NCBI GenBank assembly: GCA_013178095.1 | Contig: JABLXK010000001.1 | Coordinates: 186,001 to 250,000, forward strand | Origin: Anaerolineae bacterium | Lineage (GTDB): Bacteria; Chloroflexota; Anaerolineae; Anaerolineales; Anaerolineaceae | Direction: 5' to 3' | DNA length: 64,000 nt | Shown here: positions 1-7,958 of the stretch, one piece after another | Position numbering within the stretch: position 1 is the stretch's first letter | Layout of the letters: every line of letters begins with the position of its first letter | Program-made: the position numbers and the translations under genes | Notes under the pieces: generated by a model | What the model saw: only the letters and a program-made list of their open reading frames with translations | The model's database searches: none | What the model was told of the DNA's origin: nothing

Positions 1-167
1 ATGCGCACGAAGGCGTTCTGGGTGAGAAAGATGTCCAGCGGCGGGCGAACCCGCTGCATCTCCTCATCTTTCGGTTCCCAGCGGATGGCGCTGTGGTAAG
101 GGATGCGGGTGCGCTGCGGCTTTAATCCGTTGTTATCCGATAATTTCACTCGCGGAGGGTTATTCAA
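1..167 (-). CDS. N-terminal fragment of a probable JAB/JAMM isopeptidase (partial)
   Basis: This is the last visible gene of the ubiquitin-like operon and it is cut by the window edge after 55 codons. I chose a TTG start at 167 because a CGGAG ribosome site sits 8 nt upstream and the frame stays open to the edge; an in-frame ATG at 59 is the alternative. The visible end contains PPLDIFLTQNAFVR, which resembles the first strand and helix of bacterial JAB/MPN proteins (hydrophobic strand, then L-x-Q-x-A). The metal-binding E and HxHxxxD motifs would lie outside the window, so the call rests on this short match and on position, since JAB peptidases commonly close such operons. It starts 27 nt after the ubiquitin-like gene, so the two are probably co-transcribed. 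Any other operon-linked protein remains possible. Confidence 0.45.
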   Translation of the reverse strand, partial: MNNPPRVKLSDNNGLKPQRTRIPYHSAIRWEPKDEEMQRVRPPLDIFLTQNAFVR

Positions 168-194
168 GGCGGCAGCTCCGGATTTTATTCTCCG

Positions 195-461
195 TTATCC
201 CGCGGTGATGTCGGCAGTGATCATCAGGCGGTCGTTATCGGGCACGGCAGCGCTGCTGAGGGTTTCATCGTCCTTCAGTTCGCGGCCGAGCGCCTTGCTA
301 TCCAACCGGTAGCTTACCGGCCGGCCATCCGGGCCGACAGTGGGCAGTTCCAGGGTGGTAGCCAATTCAGGCACCAATTCCTTCACAGCCACGTCATCGG
401 GTACTTCCGCGTTGCGGGTACCTCCGGAGGGTAAAACAAGCGTTACGTTTTTGTCAGCCAT
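195..461 (-). CDS. Free ubiquitin-like protein (EsaB/YukD-like)
   Basis: An 88-residue protein of beta-grasp size. The sequence starts with VTLVLPSGGTR and has the hydrophobic pattern of EsaB/YukD ubiquitin-like proteins. It is about 68 percent identical (60 of 88 positions by my count) to the N-terminal domain of the neighbouring E2 protein, so the two arose by duplication. It ends in DITAG with a single Gly rather than the Gly-Gly of classical ubiquitin; if it is conjugated, this Gly is the likely activated residue, and no C-terminal trimming would be needed. An AAAGGA ribosome site precedes the ATG. It lies 14 nt after the E2 gene and 27 nt before the possible JAB gene. Inferred role: the modifier that the E1 activates and the E2 carries. 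A non-conjugated structural role, as for YukD in type VII secretion, is the alternative; no secretion genes are nearby. Confidence 0.8.
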   Translation of the reverse strand: MADKNVTLVLPSGGTRNAEVPDDVAVKELVPELATTLELPTVGPDGRPVSYRLDSKALGRELKDDETLSSAAVPDNDRLMITADITAG

Positions 462-475
462 CTTCTTTTTCCTTT

Positions 476-1321
476 CTATTTGAGTCTGATTTTGGGTTTC
501 GCCACGCTCAGCGGCTTGTTGAACTTGATGCGTTCCGGCCGCAGCAATTCGCGTGAATCGACGGGAAAATATTTGGGATTCTTTTTACGGAATTCCCGGC
601 ACCATTTGGCGGCTTCCATGTCCCACGGAAAAGGGGGTTTGGTGGGATCATCGTGGAAGTTTTTATATTCCAGCATCTCCCCCAGCATGATCACCAGGCG
701 GTCCAGCGAACGGCTGGCAGACCACCAGGCGGCGTCGATGCACACGCTGCCGTTGGCATGGTTGATGTTCGGGTGCCAGATGGGGGTCAGCCACTTCATG
801 CCCGGCCAGCGCTGCGGGTATTGGCTGTGCAGGTATATTTCCACCTGGTGATGTTCTCCGACTTTGGGATTCCCCAAACGGTCAATCCCGATAATACCTT
901 TGCATTTATAGGTGATGATGTAGCGTTCGGGCGGCAGCCCGATGCGTTCGGTTTTGGCGTTGACCTGGATCAGGTCGCTGCGCGCATCAATTTCCTGGAT
1001 AAGTTCGTAATCCTTGCGCAATCGGCGCAGGCGCGGGTTGGAATCGACCGATATGGCCCCGGCGGTGATGTCGGTGGTAATCATCAGCCGATCTTCATGC
1101 GGAATCCCGCTGCTGGATAAAGTCTCATTCTCGCGCAGTTCGCGCCCCAGCGCCTTGCTGTCCATGCGGTACCCCATCGGACGGCCGTCAGGGCCGACGA
1201 TGGGCAGGCCGAGCAGCGAGGTGAGTTCAGCCAACAGGTCGCGCACCGCCACGTCATCCGGCATATCCGCCCGGCGTGTGCTTCCGTTGGGTAAAACGAG
1301 TGTTACTGGTATATCCGCCAT
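476..1321 (-). CDS. Ubiquitin-like domain fused to E2 ubiquitin-conjugating enzyme
   Basis: A 281-residue two-domain protein. Residues 1-88 form an EsaB/YukD-like ubiquitin fold almost duplicating the free modifier downstream. Residues about 95-255 form an E2 (UBC) domain with the diagnostic HPN motif (H183-P184-N185) followed by G191-S-V-C194; Cys194 is the expected thioester cysteine, and the WW pair after it matches the E2 core. Both motif order and spacing are close to those of eukaryotic E2s. I chose the ATG at 1321, because the GGAGG upstream fits it and the protein then starts with the same MAD-x-x-VTLVLP as the free modifier; the frame is open 20 codons further. The first domain ends in DITAG, the same sequence that terminates the free modifier, so cleavage there would release a second modifier. 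It follows the RING gene by 25 nt. Confidence 0.85.
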   Translation of the reverse strand: MADIPVTLVLPNGSTRRADMPDDVAVRDLLAELTSLLGLPIVGPDGRPMGYRMDSKALGRELRENETLSSSGIPHEDRLMITTDITAGAISVDSNPRLRRLRKDYELIQEIDARSDLIQVNAKTERIGLPPERYIITYKCKGIIGIDRLGNPKVGEHHQVEIYLHSQYPQRWPGMKWLTPIWHPNINHANGSVCIDAAWWSASRSLDRLVIMLGEMLEYKNFHDDPTKPPFPWDMEAAKWCREFRKKNPKYFPVDSRELLRPERIKFNKPLSVAKPKIRLK

Positions 1322-1346
1322 CCGTTCCTCCAAGTAGACAATGAAT

Positions 1347-2237
1347 TCATAGCTCGTTCCGGTGAGCCACACCGCAAGCACCGGTCAGGTCCCAACAATC
1401 CTGATGGTGCCATGTACCGCATTCGGGACAGATCATTTTTCTGTCGTTCTTGTTGACTTTTTCCAGGCAATACGGGCAGACATGTTCCTCTTCGCCCATC
1501 AGTTTAACGTCGTTATTCTGCGGGGTTTTGGATTTTTTAATCGCAGCGGGTTTGGCAGCCGCGAGCTGCTTAACAGCGGGTTTGACTGCACGGCCGGTTT
1601 TTATGGTTTTTGAAGTGGATTTAGAAGCAGCATTAACCCGCACCGGTTTGGCAGAGACAGCCTTTTTGGCGGTTTTGGTGATCTTTTTGACCTGCTTGCC
1701 GACATCACGCGTGACCTGCCAATTGGCCGGGTTGATAGTATTGATCACCGGCTGCACCCGTTCGCTCAAGGAAACCTGCGGCTGGATGCTCTGAATTGGC
1801 TGCGGCGCGGGCGCAGGTGCGGATTGCGCCTGAATCCTGGCGGGTTTGCGGCGCCTGCGCAGGAAAAACAGCGTCGGCAGCGCGACCAGCAGAATCAGAA
1901 TAAACTGAGCGGCATCGCTGGGGATGGGCATGGCGAAAGTAAAATTGCGGGTCAGAAATGACAGGCGATAGGTGCCATCGTAGAAATAGTCGATCACCAG
2001 CAGCGCCATCACCTCCGAGAGCAGGGCAATTAAAAATAAAACAAACCCCGGCAAGCGGTGGAAAAACAAGCGGCATGCCAGGCTGCCGATGAAAGCAACC
2101 GCCAGCAAAATGATGATGCGCAGCCAGAATTCATCCAGGTCCGGCCGGGCGGAGAAGTAGATGATCGCTGCCAACCCAGCCGCCAGGCAAATCGCCAGGA
2201 GCGCCAGCCATTTCAGAAATCCATTGATCACTTTCAT
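1347..2237 (-). CDS. Membrane-anchored RING-finger protein, E3-ligase candidate
   Basis: A 296-residue protein. Four hydrophobic segments (about residues 8-28, 39-56, 63-83 and 108-126) are followed by an RRRRK stop-transfer stretch, a long Pro/Ala/Lys-rich linker (about 135-245) and a C-terminal zinc domain. The zinc domain has C254-x2-C257, C270-x2-C273, H277/H278, C281, C288 and H292, the eight-ligand cross-brace spacing of prokaryotic RING fingers (CPxCGTWHHxxCW). It would place the RING in the cytoplasm on a flexible tether. Its ATG overlaps the E1 stop codon (ATGA), which indicates translational coupling to the activating enzyme, and the E2 gene follows directly. In that setting an E3-like role, bringing charged E2 to membrane substrates, is the simplest reading, but it is inferred. 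A RING used only for protein binding is the alternative. Confidence 0.72.
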   Translation of the reverse strand: MKVINGFLKWLALLAICLAAGLAAIIYFSARPDLDEFWLRIIILLAVAFIGSLACRLFFHRLPGFVLFLIALLSEVMALLVIDYFYDGTYRLSFLTRNFTFAMPIPSDAAQFILILLVALPTLFFLRRRRKPARIQAQSAPAPAPQPIQSIQPQVSLSERVQPVINTINPANWQVTRDVGKQVKKITKTAKKAVSAKPVRVNAASKSTSKTIKTGRAVKPAVKQLAAAKPAAIKKSKTPQNNDVKLMGEEEHVCPYCLEKVNKNDRKMICPECGTWHHQDCWDLTGACGVAHRNEL

Positions 2238-3940
2238 GCCGATTTCTTGTCCTTTACCTTGATGGTCAATTTATCCTGCTCATTTTCCTCTGGCGGGGAG
2301 GGGATTTTCAAATCCGCATCGTGCAGGATGATCCTGGGCTTGCTTTTGATCACCAGTTTGTCGTCCAATTTGATCCGTCCGGTTACCTTGATGGGGGTTT
2401 CGTAGGCCGGTTTTTCAAAGTGGGTGAAGTGCAGCGCGTCCGGCAGGTCGGCATTTAATTCGTAAAAACGGTATTCGCTGGCATTGAAAGCGCGCAGGAT
2501 GTGCAGCGCGGGCACGCCCAGGCTGGAAAGCGTGCGGGTGAGGAAATTTTCCTCCCCGTTAATGGTATGCGAGAGCTCGGTCTCGCGCAGTAGACCGCAA
2601 ACCGGGCAGTGGGCGCGATTGAAACCAACCTCGGAAATCGGCTCCAGCACCTCTTCGCGGGTGCCGCATTGCGGGCAGGTCAGCGAGAGCACCAGTTCCT
2701 GGTCCAACTCAATCACGGCTTCAGGGCCGAGGTCGCGGCGGGCGATCTTGAGCATGTCACCCAGGGTGGTGGTGTCTGAACGCAGCGGCAGCTCGGTGAT
2801 CTCGCCGTAGGTCCAATGGCTCTCGCAATCCTCCACGGGAGTGTAAGCGGTGGTATGCATTTCGTTGGTCATGCCGTTGAAGTGCATCACGTAACCGGGC
2901 TGCACCGGTTTACCGTGGATCAACTTGAGAGCTTCCTGCGCCTGGATGGAGGCGATGATCGAGGCGATGGTGGGCGTGGTGGGCACCTTGCCCAGCAGCA
3001 CGTTCTCGCGCGCCAGCAGCGGGCAGGAATAGCGCAGCGCCAGGTCGCGGCGGGCTTGTTCGGTGAGGCTGCATTCGAAGCAGGCTCCCTGGCCGGGCAC
3101 GAACACGCGCGCCAGGCCGAAAAATTCCTGGATGGCGCCGTCCACCCAGGGTTTGTCGACCCAGTAGGCGAAACGGTTGAGCGCCAGGCGCGCCTCGCGG
3201 TTATCCAGGCAGCCGACGATCACGTCCATGCGGCGGAACACACCCAACCCGATGGCAGTGGTAACGTCGCCGTGCAGGTACTGTACGTGAATGTTGGGGT
3301 TGATCTCCTTGGCGCGCGCGGCGGCCACCTCGGCTTTCTTGCGCCCGGAGTCGCTTTCGCGGAACAGGATCGAGCGCGACAGGTTGGCCAGCTCGACAGT
3401 GTCGAAATCAACGATGAAGATGTGGCCGATGCCCATCAGCACCAGGTTTTTGATCACTTCGTTGCCCAGGGCGCCGGCGCCGACCACCATGATTTTGGCA
3501 TTTTCAACTTTTTCCCTTTCCCACCAGGAAATGAACTCGAAAGTCCCCAGGCGGTCGGTCTTCAGGTTGGGGATGATCAACGGTTTTTCCAGGTTGGCAG
3601 GCAGGCGGCGCGGACCGCTGGGGAAATCTTCAGGAGAAATGCGCACGCGTTCAGCCACAGCCTGGCTGTCTGCTGAGTCGGCGATCTCATGCGCCAGGGG
3701 CAGGTTATGCTCGTCCAGGTCGGAAATGAACCAGCCCACGCCGTGGCGCGATTCGATCAGGTTGATCTCCTCCAACGCCTTGAGCGCTTCGCGCAGGGTG
3801 GAGCGGGAAATACCGAACTGTTTGATCAGATCGCGCTCGGCTGGCAACTGGAAACCGGATTTGTAAGTGCCGTCCAGCACCTGCGCAGCCAGCTTGCCGG
3901 CTACAATTTCAGATAAAGACTTGCGGGGAATTTCATCCAC
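2234..3940 (-). CDS. GntR/FadR winged helix fused to E1-type ubiquitin-activating (ThiF/MoeB) enzyme
   Basis: A 568-residue fusion. Residues about 6-75 are a GntR winged helix (LPAERDLIKQFGISRSTLREAL, then the wing HGVGWFI). Residues about 115-345 are the E1 adenylation fold: nucleotide-binding GAGALG at 154-159, acidic D178/D180, the R in NLSRS at 189, K201/K202, and CLDNREA with D246. C287-x2-C290 could bind zinc. Cys306 in RYSCPLL, before the PTTPTIASIIASIQAQEALK helix, is my candidate catalytic cysteine. A zinc ribbon (C422, C425, C445, C448) and a Lys-rich tail follow. The family adenylates a modifier C-terminus and passes it to a cysteine. The start is GTG at 3940 with GAGG 6 nt upstream. 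The gene heads the operon, and a FadR-type palindrome overlaps its promoter. The HTH-E1 fusion is one uninterrupted frame and unusual to my knowledge. Confidence 0.85.
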   Translation of the reverse strand: MDEIPRKSLSEIVAGKLAAQVLDGTYKSGFQLPAERDLIKQFGISRSTLREALKALEEINLIESRHGVGWFISDLDEHNLPLAHEIADSADSQAVAERVRISPEDFPSGPRRLPANLEKPLIIPNLKTDRLGTFEFISWWEREKVENAKIMVVGAGALGNEVIKNLVLMGIGHIFIVDFDTVELANLSRSILFRESDSGRKKAEVAAARAKEINPNIHVQYLHGDVTTAIGLGVFRRMDVIVGCLDNREARLALNRFAYWVDKPWVDGAIQEFFGLARVFVPGQGACFECSLTEQARRDLALRYSCPLLARENVLLGKVPTTPTIASIIASIQAQEALKLIHGKPVQPGYVMHFNGMTNEMHTTAYTPVEDCESHWTYGEITELPLRSDTTTLGDMLKIARRDLGPEAVIELDQELVLSLTCPQCGTREEVLEPISEVGFNRAHCPVCGLLRETELSHTINGEENFLTRTLSSLGVPALHILRAFNASEYRFYELNADLPDALHFTHFEKPAYETPIKVTGRIKLDDKLVIKSKPRIILHDADLKIPSPPEENEQDKLTIKVKDKKSA

Positions 3941-3951
3941 GGGTACCTCGC

Positions 3952-3982
3952 TTTGGTATATTGGTCAGACCACTAAACCAAA
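3952..3982 (-). promoter_or_regulatory. 31-nt palindromic operator, FadR/GntR type
   Basis: The core TGGTCAGACCA (3962-3972) is a perfect inverted repeat around position 3967 and fits the T-N-G-T-N3-A-C-N-A pattern of FadR-type operators. Outer arms TTTGGT and ACCAAA extend it to 31 nt with 13 of 15 positions paired per arm. It abuts the -10 box and covers the predicted start site, so a bound dimer should block initiation. The GntR domain of the E1 protein encoded directly downstream is the obvious candidate ligand. Confidence 0.75.
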
Positions 3983-4010
3983 GTATAGAATCATTTTTAT
4001 CGGTTGTCAA
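3982..4010 (-). promoter_or_regulatory. Sigma-70-type promoter of the ubiquitin-like operon
   Basis: On the minus strand a perfect TTGACA (4010-4005) is separated by exactly 17 nt from TATACT (3987-3982). Transcription would begin around 3975, about 35 nt before the GTG start of the E1 fusion gene. No other promoter-like sequence was seen inside the five-gene operon, where gaps are 27 nt or less. Confidence 0.8.
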
Positions 4011-4293: not shown

Positions 4294-7200
4294 ATGAAAA
4301 TGCGCTCCAAACCGCATACTATTTTTACTCTTTTTGTATCGTTTTCAATCTTTATGTTCGCGTTAACGAACAGCGGGATCATCTCGGCCGACGACAGTCT
4401 GCCCGGCTCCAACCCTACCTCGCTGGAAGTGTACACGGAGACCCCGACTCCTGAAAATCCTTCAGGTGAGAGCAATGCAACCGATACCGGAGAAACCCCA
4501 TTGTCGGAATCGACAGCCGATTCTGGTTTTGAGTCCACGCAGCCTGGCAATCCTGAAATCACCGAAAGCCAAACGCCGTCCTCTATAAGCACCGAAACTC
4601 CGGCGGCGATCAACGAAACCCTGGGTGTAATCCAGACGGAAACACCGATGGAGACGCCGACGGAAACACCAACCGCCGCGCTGACCGAGACGCTGACGCC
4701 GACTGCCTCAGCCACACCGGATGAAAGCATGCAGTGGTCGCTGCAAATCGATGCGATCAGCAAGAGCGTTTACTCTCAGGCCAGCGCGTTGACCTCCGAT
4801 TTTCTGTCGCAAGGCCTTGACAGCGAATTAAGCGCGCAGGGCGGCGGTTTATATAGCATGACCATCAACGGAGAAGATGGAATGCAGGAGATCCGCGATG
4901 TGCTGTATGGAGAGCTGGGCGACGCGGTGCGATTCATCGGCGGTTCAGCCGAGATCACGATTGAAATGCCCCTGGAAAGTACGCAGGAGATCAGCATCGC
5001 GCTCGAAAGCAATCCCTCCACCGGATACGAATGGCAGATTGTGCAGGCTGAAAGCGAAGGGGCTGGCATGTCGGGCGACAGCGCCTACCTGGGACGCGGG
5101 GGGATCGGCGCGCCGGATATGGTCACGCTGACCCTCAAACCCGCACAGATCGGCAGCGCCACCATCCGCCTGGTTTATAAACGCCCCTTTGAACCTGAGC
5201 CGCAGATTACGCGCCATTTGACCATCCGTTTCAGCCAGTCGGTTAATCAAATCGACCTGAGCGATCCCAACCCGCCGGCTGCCGTTGGCGCGGAGGAAGC
5301 GCTGACTGCTATGGGCGCAACTGAGGAGACTCTTAGCGCTCAGGCAGAATTGCCAGCCGCTTTTGACTGGCGTGTGGGCGACGCAACCCACCCGGCCATC
5401 AACATCCCCATCCGCAACCAGGGTAGCTGCGGTTCATGCTGGGCATTCGGCACAGTGGGCGTGATGGAAGGCGCCATGGTCAAGGCCGGCATGCCGGTGA
5501 CCGATCTCTCGGAACAATTCCTGGTTTCCTGCAACAAGGATGGCTGGGATTGCGACGGCGGCTGGATCGCGCACAAGTACCACACCAACACCCTTGGCAA
5601 AAGCCAGAGTGTGATCGGGGCAGTGCTGGAAAGCGACATGCCCTACACCGCAACCGATGGGGGCTGCTACAACGTTTCCAATCATCCGTATAAATTATCC
5701 AGTTACGCGTCAACTTCCGGCGCCAGTGTGTCAGCGATCAAGAACGCGATCTATACCTATGGCCCGGTCCTGGCAACAGTTTGCAGCGGTCCTGCTTTCC
5801 ATGCATATTATTCCTGGTATACCAGCGATCTGGGTGTTTTCTCAACCAATGAAAGCAGCCAATGCGGCAGCGATGGCGTCAACCACGTGATCGTATTGGT
5901 GGGTTGGAATGACGCGGGCGGTTACTGGATCCTGCGCAACAGTTGGGATACCTGGTGGGGCGAAGACGGCTATATGCGCATCGCTTACGGCACATCGAAG
6001 GTCGCCAAATACATCTCCTGGGCAACCTACACCACGCCGCTGGCGCCCGCGCCACTGATGCTCTACCCGGCCAAAGAAGCGCTTACCATGGACAATACAC
6101 CCGAGTTCACCTGGCAAACCTCCGTCAACGCGGTTTCGTACGAAATCCAGATCGCGACCAGCTCGACTTTCTCGGCGACATCACTCATCAAGGACCAAGC
6201 CGGCATCACTAGCTTGACCTATACATCCAGCGCATTACCGGATGGCCGTTATTACTGGCGCGTACGCGGTTTGAACGCTTACAATGCCTACGGCAAGTGG
6301 AGCGCTTACCGCGCTTTCACAGTCGACACCACCGCGCCCCTGCCGCCGAACTTGTATAAACCGCTGACCGCCGCGACCGCGATCGGCACGCCCACGTTCA
6401 CCTGGGTCAAGTCCTCCACGGCGGTTTATTATCAATTCGAATATGGCACTTCAACCGATTACAACTCATACTTGTATCGATCGGGGGAAACGACCTCGCT
6501 CAGCCACAAACCACCCATCATGGCCCCAAAAGTGACCTATTACTGGTTCGCGCGCGCGCGGGATAAAGCCGGCAACTGGAGCGCCTGGAGCGCGCCATTT
6601 ACGATTACCATCGAACCAACTGTTCCGCTCAGGCCAATACTCAATACGCCGCTCAACGGAGAATTCAAGAACGACAACACTCCCGAATTGACCTGGAAAG
6701 CAGTCGATTACGGCGCGAATTACCATGTGCAAGTCTCCAAATCCTCGTCGTTTTCCATTTTAGTGCCCAAGGATGTGGACCAGGAAGGCGTCAGCGCATT
6801 GAGCCATACTGTCTCTACATTGACAGACGGTAAATATTATTGGCGCGTACGCGCCCGCAACGTGAACGGCGCGTATGGTTCCTGGAGCTCGATCCGTTAT
6901 TTCACGGTGGATACCATTGCGCCTCCCGCTCCGGTGCAGGTGCTGCCCGAGGACGTATCCACCAAGATCGGCACACCTACTTTCAGTTGGAAAGCCTCGC
7001 CAACCGCCAGCAAATACCTGTTTGCTTACAATACCAGCGGATCAACCAGCAGCTTCAGCTACACCTCTGCCTTGCTTGCCACGCTATCCCACCGGCCTCC
7101 GACCATGGCAGCCAAGACCCAATACTACTGGTTCGTGCGTGCGGTCGATAAGGCCGGCAACCAGAGTGGTTGGAGCGAGCCCTTCCTTGTATATATCGAA

Positions 7201-7497
7201 CCCACTGTTCCAACACGGGTTTCGTTGTCATCGCCCTATAGCGGCGCGAAATCCACCAGCACGACCGTGACGTTGGCCTGGAAGGCGGTAACATACGGCA
7301 ATATCTATCAAATCCAGATCGACAACAGCTCGGGATTTGGCAGCGTCGATTACGCCTACGATTCAGCAGCGGGCGCCACCTCGCGGGATGTTGGTCCGCT
7401 GCCGGCCGGCCGCTGGTATTGGCGGGTCAGCGCCAGGAACCTCAACGGCGTGAACGGCCCCTGGAGCTCCTACCGCTACTTCACGGTGACACCCTAG
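4294..7497 (+). CDS. Secreted papain-family (C1A) cysteine protease with built-in chagasin-like inhibitor domain
   Basis: A 1067-residue secreted protein. An N-terminal hydrophobic segment (residues about 8-30) is followed by a Thr/Pro/Glu-rich stretch (about 40-145). Residues about 215-313 match chagasin (I42) cysteine-protease inhibitors, with all three inhibitory loops visible: NPSTGY 240-245, the GRGG loop near 267-270, and RPF 297-299. The papain domain runs from about 352 to 580 with oxyanion Gln376, catalytic Cys382 (GSCGSCWAF), His531 and Asn549 (RNSWDTWWGEDG). About five Ig/FN3-like repeats (YYWRVRARN-type) fill 585-1067. A propeptide normally keeps papains inactive; here a chagasin fold occupies that position, so autoinhibition in cis is a reasonable inference. 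A ribosome site AAAGGA lies upstream, and a terminator follows. Likely role: extracellular protein or peptide breakdown, or cell-surface processing. Confidence 0.88.
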   Translation: MKMRSKPHTIFTLFVSFSIFMFALTNSGIISADDSLPGSNPTSLEVYTETPTPENPSGESNATDTGETPLSESTADSGFESTQPGNPEITESQTPSSISTETPAAINETLGVIQTETPMETPTETPTAALTETLTPTASATPDESMQWSLQIDAISKSVYSQASALTSDFLSQGLDSELSAQGGGLYSMTINGEDGMQEIRDVLYGELGDAVRFIGGSAEITIEMPLESTQEISIALESNPSTGYEWQIVQAESEGAGMSGDSAYLGRGGIGAPDMVTLTLKPAQIGSATIRLVYKRPFEPEPQITRHLTIRFSQSVNQIDLSDPNPPAAVGAEEALTAMGATEETLSAQAELPAAFDWRVGDATHPAINIPIRNQGSCGSCWAFGTVGVMEGAMVKAGMPVTDLSEQFLVSCNKDGWDCDGGWIAHKYHTNTLGKSQSVIGAVLESDMPYTATDGGCYNVSNHPYKLSSYASTSGASVSAIKNAIYTYGPVLATVCSGPAFHAYYSWYTSDLGVFSTNESSQCGSDGVNHVIVLVGWNDAGGYWILRNSWDTWWGEDGYMRIAYGTSKVAKYISWATYTTPLAPAPLMLYPAKEALTMDNTPEFTWQTSVNAVSYEIQIATSSTFSATSLIKDQAGITSLTYTSSALPDGRYYWRVRGLNAYNAYGKWSAYRAFTVDTTAPLPPNLYKPLTAATAIGTPTFTWVKSSTAVYYQFEYGTSTDYNSYLYRSGETTSLSHKPPIMAPKVTYYWFARARDKAGNWSAWSAPFTITIEPTVPLRPILNTPLNGEFKNDNTPELTWKAVDYGANYHVQVSKSSSFSILVPKDVDQEGVSALSHTVSTLTDGKYYWRVRARNVNGAYGSWSSIRYFTVDTIAPPAPVQVLPEDVSTKIGTPTFSWKASPTASKYLFAYNTSGSTSSFSYTSALLATLSHRPPTMAAKTQYYWFVRAVDKAGNQSGWSEPFLVYIEPTVPTRVSLSSPYSGAKSTSTTVTLAWKAVTYGNIYQIQIDNSSGFGSVDYAYDSAAGATSRDVGPLPAGRWYWRVSARNLNGVNGPWSSYRYFTVTP

Positions 7498-7504
7498 CAC
7501 GAAC

Positions 7505-7534
7505 AAAGAGTCCGGAACTTTTCCGGGCTCTTTT
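7505..7534 (+). terminator. Rho-independent terminator after the C1 protease
   Basis: A GC-rich hairpin (AAAGAGTCCGGAA paired with TTCCGGGCTCTTT around a short loop) runs into a T tract 8 nt after the stop codon. The next gene starts at 7569, so it probably has its own promoter; a TATAAT occurs at 7544-7549. Confidence 0.7.
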
Positions 7535-7568
7535 CGTTATGGTTATAATGATGGCTCAGGAGGAGAGC

Positions 7569-7958
7569 ATGAAAAGAACCGGATTGCTTTTTTGCTTATT
7601 GCTGGCGCTCGCCGCAGTGGGGTGTCAATCGAAAGCAGGTCAAACCATCCTGACTGAGGAGAACAATGGACAGACCATAACGGTGGCAGCAGGCAGCGAG
7701 ATCGTGATAAAGCTGGAAGGGAACATCACCACCGGTTACAGCTGGTCGGTGCAGGATCTGGACGCGCAGTACTTACAGCAGCAGGGCGAAGAAGAATATA
7801 AAAGTGAGAGTGACCTGATCGGGGCCGGCGGGGTTTCGACTTTTACTTTTAAGGCTATGCAGTCCGGCCAAACGACATTAAAAATGATCTACAGCCGGCC
7901 ATTCGAAAAAAATACCCCGCCGGAAAAAGTATTCGAGATTTCCGTGGATATTCAATAG
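7569..7958 (+). CDS. Chagasin-like (I42) cysteine protease inhibitor lipoprotein
   Basis: A 129-residue protein with a lipoprotein signal (hydrophobic residues 5-17, AAVGC with lipidated Cys19). The rest is a single chagasin domain with the three loops used to plug papain-like active sites: NITTGY 52-57, GAGG 85-88, and RPF 110-112. I chose the ATG at 7569 because it gives a proper signal peptide after an AGGAGAG ribosome site. It lies directly behind a papain-like protease that carries its own chagasin domain, so the two inhibitors are probably paralogous and the lipoprotein may protect the cell surface from that protease. Similarity to the fused copy is clear in the loops only. Direct inhibition of the neighbour is inferred. 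Confidence 0.85.
   Translation: MKRTGLLFCLLLALAAVGCQSKAGQTILTEENNGQTITVAAGSEIVIKLEGNITTGYSWSVQDLDAQYLQQQGEEEYKSESDLIGAGGVSTFTFKAMQSGQTTLKMIYSRPFEKNTPPEKVFEISVDIQ

Follow-up and report, generated by a model that had tools for sequence, protein, structure and literature searches.

A seven-gene operon for a predicted ubiquitin-like conjugation pathway, headed by a GntR-E1 fusion, in Anaerolineae

Can a bacterium carry in one operon a whole set of proteins for attaching a ubiquitin-like modifier and removing it again, and what controls such an operon? The question is raised by a stretch of 64,000 nucleotides (nt) of an Anaerolineae bacterium (GCA_013178095.1, contig JABLXK010000001.1, positions 186,001 to 250,000), here called the window. 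At its left end, an earlier note had described an operon of five consecutive minus-strand genes, encoding an E1-type enzyme, a RING-finger membrane protein, an E2, a free modifier and the start of a probable JAB protein. Open reading frame (ORF) positions and Pfam matches bear out all five, but the operon is longer than described. Reading the left flank for 10 kilobases (kb) beyond the window start (sequence L003) completed the JAB gene and added an FHA and a vWA gene. The order is E1, RING, modifier-E2 fusion, modifier, JAB, FHA and vWA, with gaps of -4, 25, 14, 27, -4 and 3 nt. The ATGA overlap of the E1 and RING genes (2234–2237) and gaps of at most 27 nt had thus been read correctly. The genome carrying the operon is 2.94 Mb in size and 94% complete. 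The Pfam matches to ThiF, GntR, Prok-RING_1, UQ_con and YukD given below all exceed the curated cut-offs.

On balance, we think it probable that the operon would attach the modifier to membrane-near proteins and remove it again, with the E1 likely repressing its own operon.

Conjugation machinery encoded by the operon

All seven genes were found in the same order in 58 of the 66 named loci, and the other eight loci stop at the end of a sequence. The arrangement is therefore not due to chance. All 66 loci carry Chloroflexota names. The alignments A1, A2 and A3 comprise 43, 62 and 43 loci plus the window, picked from the 66 for diversity and length. The rows used for conserved residues exclude L001–L005 (copies from the own genome and a paralogue). 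As some loci are the same genome under two names, row counts are not counts of independent genomes.

The E2 starts directly with a modifier (YukD, 5.1e-7), without an N-terminal extra domain, and continues into a UQ_con domain (1.4e-11). The HPN motif and the catalytic Cys named in the earlier note are in place, and HPN...C was present in 94 of 94 E2 rows. A stricter pattern was matched by 83 of the 94; of the 11 misses, nine have CV, one has IC, and L049 passes the looser pattern. A UBC fold is also predicted: PDB profile matches were UBE2K/UBE2D, and the AlphaFold2 (AF2) model had UBE2K as its best Foldseek match (probability 1.00). The fold call rests on Pfam, PDB profile matches and Foldseek; in the VIA structure search, modifier rows filled the list. 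Judged by predicted fold, HPN motif and catalytic Cys, the protein is an E2 of the UBC type. The outcome that the earlier note had named as refuting, an E2-like domain lacking a UBC fold in structure prediction, thus did not arise.

The free YukD-like protein was likewise confirmed (Table 1), although on its own it gave no significant PDB sequence match (best E-value 0.13). With its beta-grasp fold and exposed C-terminal Gly, it is a ubiquitin-like modifier. Free modifiers ended exactly in Thr-Ala-Gly in 88 of 92 cases, including those of a distant variant (32–39% identity). The exceptions were three proteins with 2–5 residues beyond Ala-Gly (L016, L026 and L030) and one cut by a contig end. 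An Ala-Gly end with occasional extensions is the expected look of a conjugated modifier with pro-peptides, and from this we infer conjugation.

The fused copy keeps the same end at an internal position. T86, A87 and G88 are invariant in the 44 rows of A1 and the residues after them are variable, a layout that would fit cleavage by the JAB protein. By a wider count, the internal TAG was found in 73 of 94 rows. The 21 misses were the 18 E2s of L016–L033 (taken as unfused), the cut or broken L096 and L100, and L015 (junction probably hidden by trimming). Among the rows used for conserved residues, Gly88 made up 75 of 76 letters.

The fused copy might instead be a permanent regulatory domain (for backside or E1 docking) that stays uncleaved, while only the free copy is conjugated. 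The two copies have been kept apart, as this would predict: across 70 loci, their mean identity within a locus was 72%, compared with 75% among fused and 80% among free copies. Against it, the fused copy keeps its TAG end although this end is internal. Moreover, release by JAB has been proposed for the related fusion of the FtsH-ternary MoxR-vWA conflict systems (Kaur 2020, PMC7159879). We regard the permanent domain as a serious contender, if a somewhat doubtful one. Profile searches returned no second cascade in the own genome, only a single UQ_con, a single Prok-RING_1 and the operon's two YukD matches.

The RING-like protein has four predicted membrane helices (residues 2–29, 36–58, 64–85 and 106–124) and a C-terminal RING-like domain (~250–292). 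In the AF2 model, the local confidence score (pLDDT) is mostly >90 for the helices and ~89 for the C-terminal domain, and the linker of ~120 residues is low-confidence. Prok-RING_1 matched here (4.5e-9) and in 62 of the 63 proteins scanned. The residues C254, C257, C270, C273, H277/278, C281, C288 and H292 were kept in 76 of 76 rows and an eight-ligand Zn pattern in 74 of 75; the exception, L011, only lacks the Gly of the pattern. The fold searches with the model were weak, without strong significance, and returned PHD and RING fingers alike. The protein is a predicted E3. The earlier note had proposed a full E1-E2-E3-isopeptidase set with a membrane-anchored E3. Profiles, conservation and predicted structures support the set and the membrane anchor, and the E3 role stands as a prediction.

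The suspected JAB start belongs to a whole gene (JAB 1.2e-8, Prok-JAB 1.2e-6) with the full JAMM motif. E67, H133, H135, S143 and D146 were present in all rows with letters there. The motif was found in 87 of 89 rows, and both misses were fragments (126 and 103 residues). By its E...HxH...SxxD metal site, the protein is classed as a JAMM isopeptidase.

Several proteins share a tail motif, [KRG][IVL][RKH][IVL], typically -RIKLK or -GRIRL-. The pattern was written after the tails had been inspected, and its counts at the C-termini of E1 and E2 (Table 1) compare with shuffle rates of 14% and 15%. It was also found at the C-terminus of 51 of 60 vWA proteins (shuffles: 19%) and at the N-terminus of 26 of 64 JAB proteins (shuffles: 2%). 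ORFs of the flanks carried it at 56 of 644 C-termini and 21 of 644 N-termini. The motif was not enriched in FHA proteins (8/63) or modifiers (0/65). We read it as a putative docking tag for one shared partner. For the RING linker the motif was discarded, as 17 of 66 linkers carry it compared with 21% in shuffles.

Two further observations concern the FHA protein. Its membrane part is strongly conserved. The FHA domain keeps an invariant His and Gly-Thr, but the Arg and Ser that usually contact phosphothreonine seem to be missing.

The GntR domain of the E1 and its operator

The E1 was said to carry a helix-turn-helix (HTH) domain, and Pfam agrees (GntR 1e-17, ThiF 3.6e-57). The GntR winged helix covers residues 10–72 and the ThiF/E1 domain residues 135–366. 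Likely Zn-ribbon cysteines lie at 422/425/445/448, and the C-terminal tail is variable. Both domains were found in all 44 E1s scanned with Pfam. Cys306 was kept in 61 of 61 close and 14 of 14 distant rows, and G154, G156 and G159 of the glycine-rich nucleotide motif in 61 of 61 close rows. By fold, nucleotide motif and candidate catalytic Cys, the protein is assigned to the E1/ThiF family.

Upstream of the E1 gene lies a sigma-70-type promoter, followed by an operator that resembles the FadR-type consensus. The operator was counted in the window and the 58 named loci with at least 150 nt of upstream sequence. An exact TGGTNNNACCA (mostly TGGTCTGACCA) preceded the E1 start in 51 of these 59 loci, with one mismatch in six more; only 0.4% of shuffled upstream sequences had an exact copy. 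With up to one mismatch, 57 of 59 loci have the operator in the interval 20–50 nt before the E1 start. The promoter reached at least 9 of 12 matches in 49 of the 57 operator-bearing loci (7% of shuffles), and the -10 element ended 6–11 nt ahead of the operator in 48. In the window, the 11-nt operator core begins 9 nt past the -10 element.

Mean pairwise identity was 0.87 in the 19-nt operator, 0.33 in the preceding 40 nt and 0.27 further upstream. Eight fixed operator positions were the selection criterion, so conservation there is built in. Outside this selection, the outer ACCA and the position-5 C reached 91–100% conservation.

The perfect 19-nt operator occurs in the own genome solely at the E1 promoter, and forms with two mismatches were no commoner than the reversed control. 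All eight other genomes had the operator at the E1 gene (seven perfect, one with a mismatch), and six of them had scattered sites with one mismatch elsewhere. No exact operator was found within 260 nt upstream of 11 E1s without GntR (absence judged by length and alignment start); two near-identical loci among them had a one-mismatch site at -111. With its N-terminal winged helix and a GntR-like operator at its own promoter, the E1 also belongs, by sequence, to the GntR family. It is probably the regulator of its own operon.

An unlinked lipoprotein-like gene also has such a dyad, with one mismatch, immediately ahead of it, here and in two relatives (70–78% identity), P. submarina (L126) and L130. 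The lipoprotein-like protein has no Pfam match. The operon and this gene likely form a small putative regulon.

Table 1. Coordinates of the operon and related features (window positions unless a sequence is named)
Feature	Position	Strand	Evidence or remark
E1-like activating enzyme	2234..3940	-	Pfam GntR + ThiF; conserved Cys306
Membrane RING-like protein, candidate E3	1347..2237	-	Prok-RING_1; AF2 model; metal-site residues
YukD-like modifier (residues 1-88) + E2/UBC fusion	476..1321	-	Pfam; PDB profile matches; AF2, Foldseek; HPN 183-185, Cys194
Fused modifier domain, internal end Thr86-Ala87-Gly88	1058..1321	-	Invariant in alignment A1
Free YukD-like modifier, 88 residues, end ...DITAG	195..461	-	Pfam YukD 4.1e-11
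JAB/JAMM isopeptidase start	1..167	-	Whole gene L003:9496-10167, ~505 nt past the window's left edge
FHA membrane protein	L003:8642-9499, left of window		4-nt overlap with JAB gene
vWA membrane protein	L003:7517-8638, left of window		3-nt gap after FHA gene
Sigma-70-type operon promoter TTGACA, 17 nt, TATACT	3982..4010	-	11/12 matches
FadR/GntR-like operator, extended dyad TGGT-N4-TGGTCTGACCA-N4-ACCA	3954..3980	-	11-nt core 3962-3972
E2 C-terminal tail motif KIRLK, residues 277-281	479..493	-	Motif in 65/67 E2 tails
E1 C-terminal tail motif RIKL, residues 522-525	2366..2377	-	Motif in 60/65 E1 tails
Lipoprotein-like gene	L108:6882-7658 (contig C19)		Second operator ~L108:7683-7709, near-copy of E1 operator

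Among the neighbours, a divergent gene (window 4294–7497, plus strand) encodes a papain-family protease with a chagasin-like inhibitor domain and Ig-like repeats. It is followed by a small gene (7419–7958) with the same inhibitor domain by eye. A MazF/PemK-like toxin gene lies downstream of the vWA gene (L003:6696–7025, minus strand).

Known systems, inheritance and rival explanations

Burroughs, Iyer and Aravind reportedly predicted in 2011 (Mol BioSyst) that RING-type E3, E1, E2, JAB and YukD-like modifiers occur in prokaryotic operons. The earlier note had taken the RING, the fused modifier and the HTH-E1 to make the present version distinct. This does not hold for the fusion, as modifier-E2 fusions with E1, JAB and RING E3 have been described (PMC7159879). 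It seems to hold for the GntR-E1. The FtsH-ternary systems share separate JAB, E1 and RING E3 genes and the modifier-E2 fusion with our operon; their modifier carries EAD1, and they include MoxR, FtsH and caspase-like genes (PMC7159879). In contrast, the operon studied here has the GntR-E1, a second, free modifier, a membrane-bound RING protein, FHA and a vWA protein in the membrane. When its seven proteins and five flank proteins were scanned with Pfam models, EAD1 not among them, no AAA+ gene and no MoxR, FtsH or caspase-like gene was found. The combination of MoxR, double FtsH and EAD1-modifier-E2 that defines FtsH-ternary systems was thus not seen. A related modifier system is coupled with Pup conjugation in Thermofonsia and Planctomycetes (PMC7159879).

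The operon of Caldiarchaeum subterraneum also has E1, E2, a small RING and an adjoining Rpn11/JAMM gene (Hennell James 2017, PMC5654768), and its JAMM protein trims the pro-modifier (PMC5654768). It differs in being archaeal and in using a ubiquitin with Gly-Gly. It is not known to have an E1 transcription domain or membrane FHA or vWA partners. The bacterial Bil and Bub operons encode a modifier together with E1, E2 and a peptidase and are not known to include a RING. Their role is putatively immune, and 219 of 544 Bub operons come with CapW or CapH+CapP regulators (PMC13373217), whereas here the E1 itself bears a DNA-binding-type domain. Several bacteria have operons with modifier, JAB, E1-like and E2-like genes, but the E2-like domains described for them differ from the classical HPN site, and the same study links YukD with ESAT-6 export and not with E1/E2 (Iyer 2006, PMC1779556).

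Matches in PADLOC and NCBIfam were all partial or generic (ThiF, HTH, JAB, FHA, vWA), for the E1 among the best 25 of 34 and 25 of 49, respectively. The best 25 of 34 PADLOC matches of the E1 include a partial BilD match (4.1e-7) and no BilA-C. No CD-NTase, as in CBASS type II, was found by Pfam among the 12 proteins scanned (operon and flank). Neither a GntR-E1 fusion nor such an operon with FHA and a membrane vWA was met in the literature searched (among it PMC1779556, PMC11354881, PMC13373217, PMC3701619, PMC5654768, PMC7159879 and PMC8195603), which mostly leaves out subscription journals. The GntR-E1 with operator, the membrane RING with FHA and vWA, and the shared tails are thus seemingly new.

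A protein search returned 1,890 relatives of the modifier-E2 fusion, and all of the 120 listed had both YukD and UQ_con. The closest named E2 match (89% in the best segment) was from Pelolinea submarina MO-CFX1 (L035), a named and cultured strain. In overlapping genome samples, with weaker and partial matches counted too, the order gave 66 matching genomes out of 301 (among good genomes, 42 out of 174), the class 33 out of 298 and the phylum 18 out of 400.

The gene rplL lies 141–266 nt upstream of the operon in 25 of the 57 loci with at least 600 nt upstream, usually after nusG-rplK-rplA-rplJ. A convergent lexA lies downstream (median 79 nt) in 23 of the 51 loci with at least 800 nt downstream, all between L058 and L100. 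One example each of rplL and lexA was confirmed by Pfam. In a midpoint-rooted tree of 53 of the 66 loci, the rplL-linked loci group under a single node with support 0.96, where they make up 22 of the 28 tips. The window's own operon sits elsewhere. No relatives of the E2 fusion were found in the plasmid, phage and viral contig collections searched. Together with the rplL location in one clade, this points to an operon that was mostly inherited vertically and lost in places, and away from a mobile defence island.

The same data bear on the next rival explanation, an anti-phage conjugation system like Bil or CBASS that tags phage structural or effector proteins. Bil systems act against phages. 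The patchy presence in the order would fit, as would the partial PADLOC matches of the E1 and JAB proteins (models for E1-E2, JAB and BilD). CBASS operons with E1, E2, JAB and modifier also act in anti-phage defence (PMC10097602, PMC11153139). However, the PADLOC matches reflect partial ThiF/JAB similarity, and E2, modifier, RING, FHA and vWA match nothing at E 0.01. The lack of copies in plasmids, phages and viral contigs and the place beside rplL and lexA kept in one clade are also unlike a mobile defence island. We consider an anti-phage role unlikely.

A distant sister form in other genomes of the class has a GntR-less E1, an unfused modifier mostly ending in TAG, an E2 and usually two JAB genes. 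Of its RING-like proteins, three were picked by pattern: that of L137 has one predicted membrane helix, and those of L145 have three and none. The RINGs with membrane helices indicate that a membrane-tied RING may be old, while GntR-E1 and operator belong to the form described here.

Several side observations were made on the distant variant (L136–L144). A large gene upstream, read by eye as a dynamin-like GTPase, was present in 5 of 12 fetched loci. Some extra proteins in the three loci viewed repeat a possible short motif, hydrophobic-x-I-T/R-x-acidic-acidic. L145 (G278) is a possible intermediate, with a GntR-less E1, two RING-like genes, a modifier ending in TAGRQL and an unfused E2. It also has two JAB genes (one of 808 residues) and the start of a vWA gene.

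The YukD-type modifiers could also act non-covalently as in type VII secretion, with the membrane parts of FHA and vWA forming a secretion or surface complex. This is very improbable. Almost every row conserves Cys306, Cys194, the JAMM motif and the Ala-Gly end, a constraint that non-covalent binding would not impose. No WXG100 match (PF06013) was found in the own genome (94% complete), and the B. subtilis positive control matches; the type VII secretion reading was dropped for lack of a PF06013 match. A sulfur-carrier relay (ThiS/MoaD-like) instead of protein tagging is hardly credible: the E1 does belong to the ThiF/MoeB family, but the genome has a separate ThiF-family gene, and an E2 with HPN...Cys and a RING-like protein are not known from sulfur relays.

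Proposed mechanism and significance

Gene order, domains, catalytic and metal residues, the Ala-Gly end, promoter and operator matches and the tail motif are read from the sequence, and from them we infer the following steps of the tagging pathway. The JAMM protease would remove the rare extra residues at the C-terminus of the modifier and may free the modifier from the E2 by cutting after Gly88. The E1 would adenylate Gly88, hold the modifier on Cys306 and hand it on to the E2 (Cys194). Anchored in the membrane through its long flexible linker, the RING protein would then trigger transfer to lysines of targets near the membrane. The tails of E1, E2, vWA and often JAB, which are short and basic-hydrophobic, may share one docking partner, with the FHA protein as the best guess. 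The vWA domain, outside the membrane, would supply a signal.

Proteasome/HslV (PF00227) and Pup ligase (PF03136) were not found in the own genome (94% complete), and proteasomal and Pup-linked readings were dropped accordingly. Without them, the mark more likely serves as a signal, or as a cue for a membrane protease, than for delivery to a proteasome.

BirA, biotin ligase and repressor in one, is an adenylating enzyme that binds its own operator. The GntR part of the E1 would bind the operator at the start site and couple modifier charging to transcription in the same way. BirA charges biotin, and by analogy the charged group here would be a protein modifier. A bolder reading, a 'BirA of ubiquitin', is offered tentatively, and we are slightly more inclined to doubt than to accept it. 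The E1 would sense the charged modifier and set expression of the cascade (and of the lipoprotein gene in the Pelolinea clade). The peptide tag shared by E1, E2, JAB and the vWA surface receptor would gather the machine at the membrane, so that an outside signal directs tagging inside.

The operon is a compact bacterial match to the ubiquitin-tagging pathway of our own cells, and with it, ideas on how such pathways arose and are controlled can be tested in bacteria. Judged by its sequence, the E1-E2-RING-isopeptidase set is complete, in a lineage that includes Pelolinea submarina MO-CFX1, and its conservation allows predictions at the level of residues. If the modifiers with an Ala-Gly end are conjugated, this would settle a question about YukD that was reportedly raised in 2011. 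If the E1 controls its own operon, charging and gene expression would be wired in one protein, a design not met in the literature searched. A membrane-tethered RING with docking tails would, if true, be a small and genetically simple model for how ubiquitin-like machines are assembled and placed.

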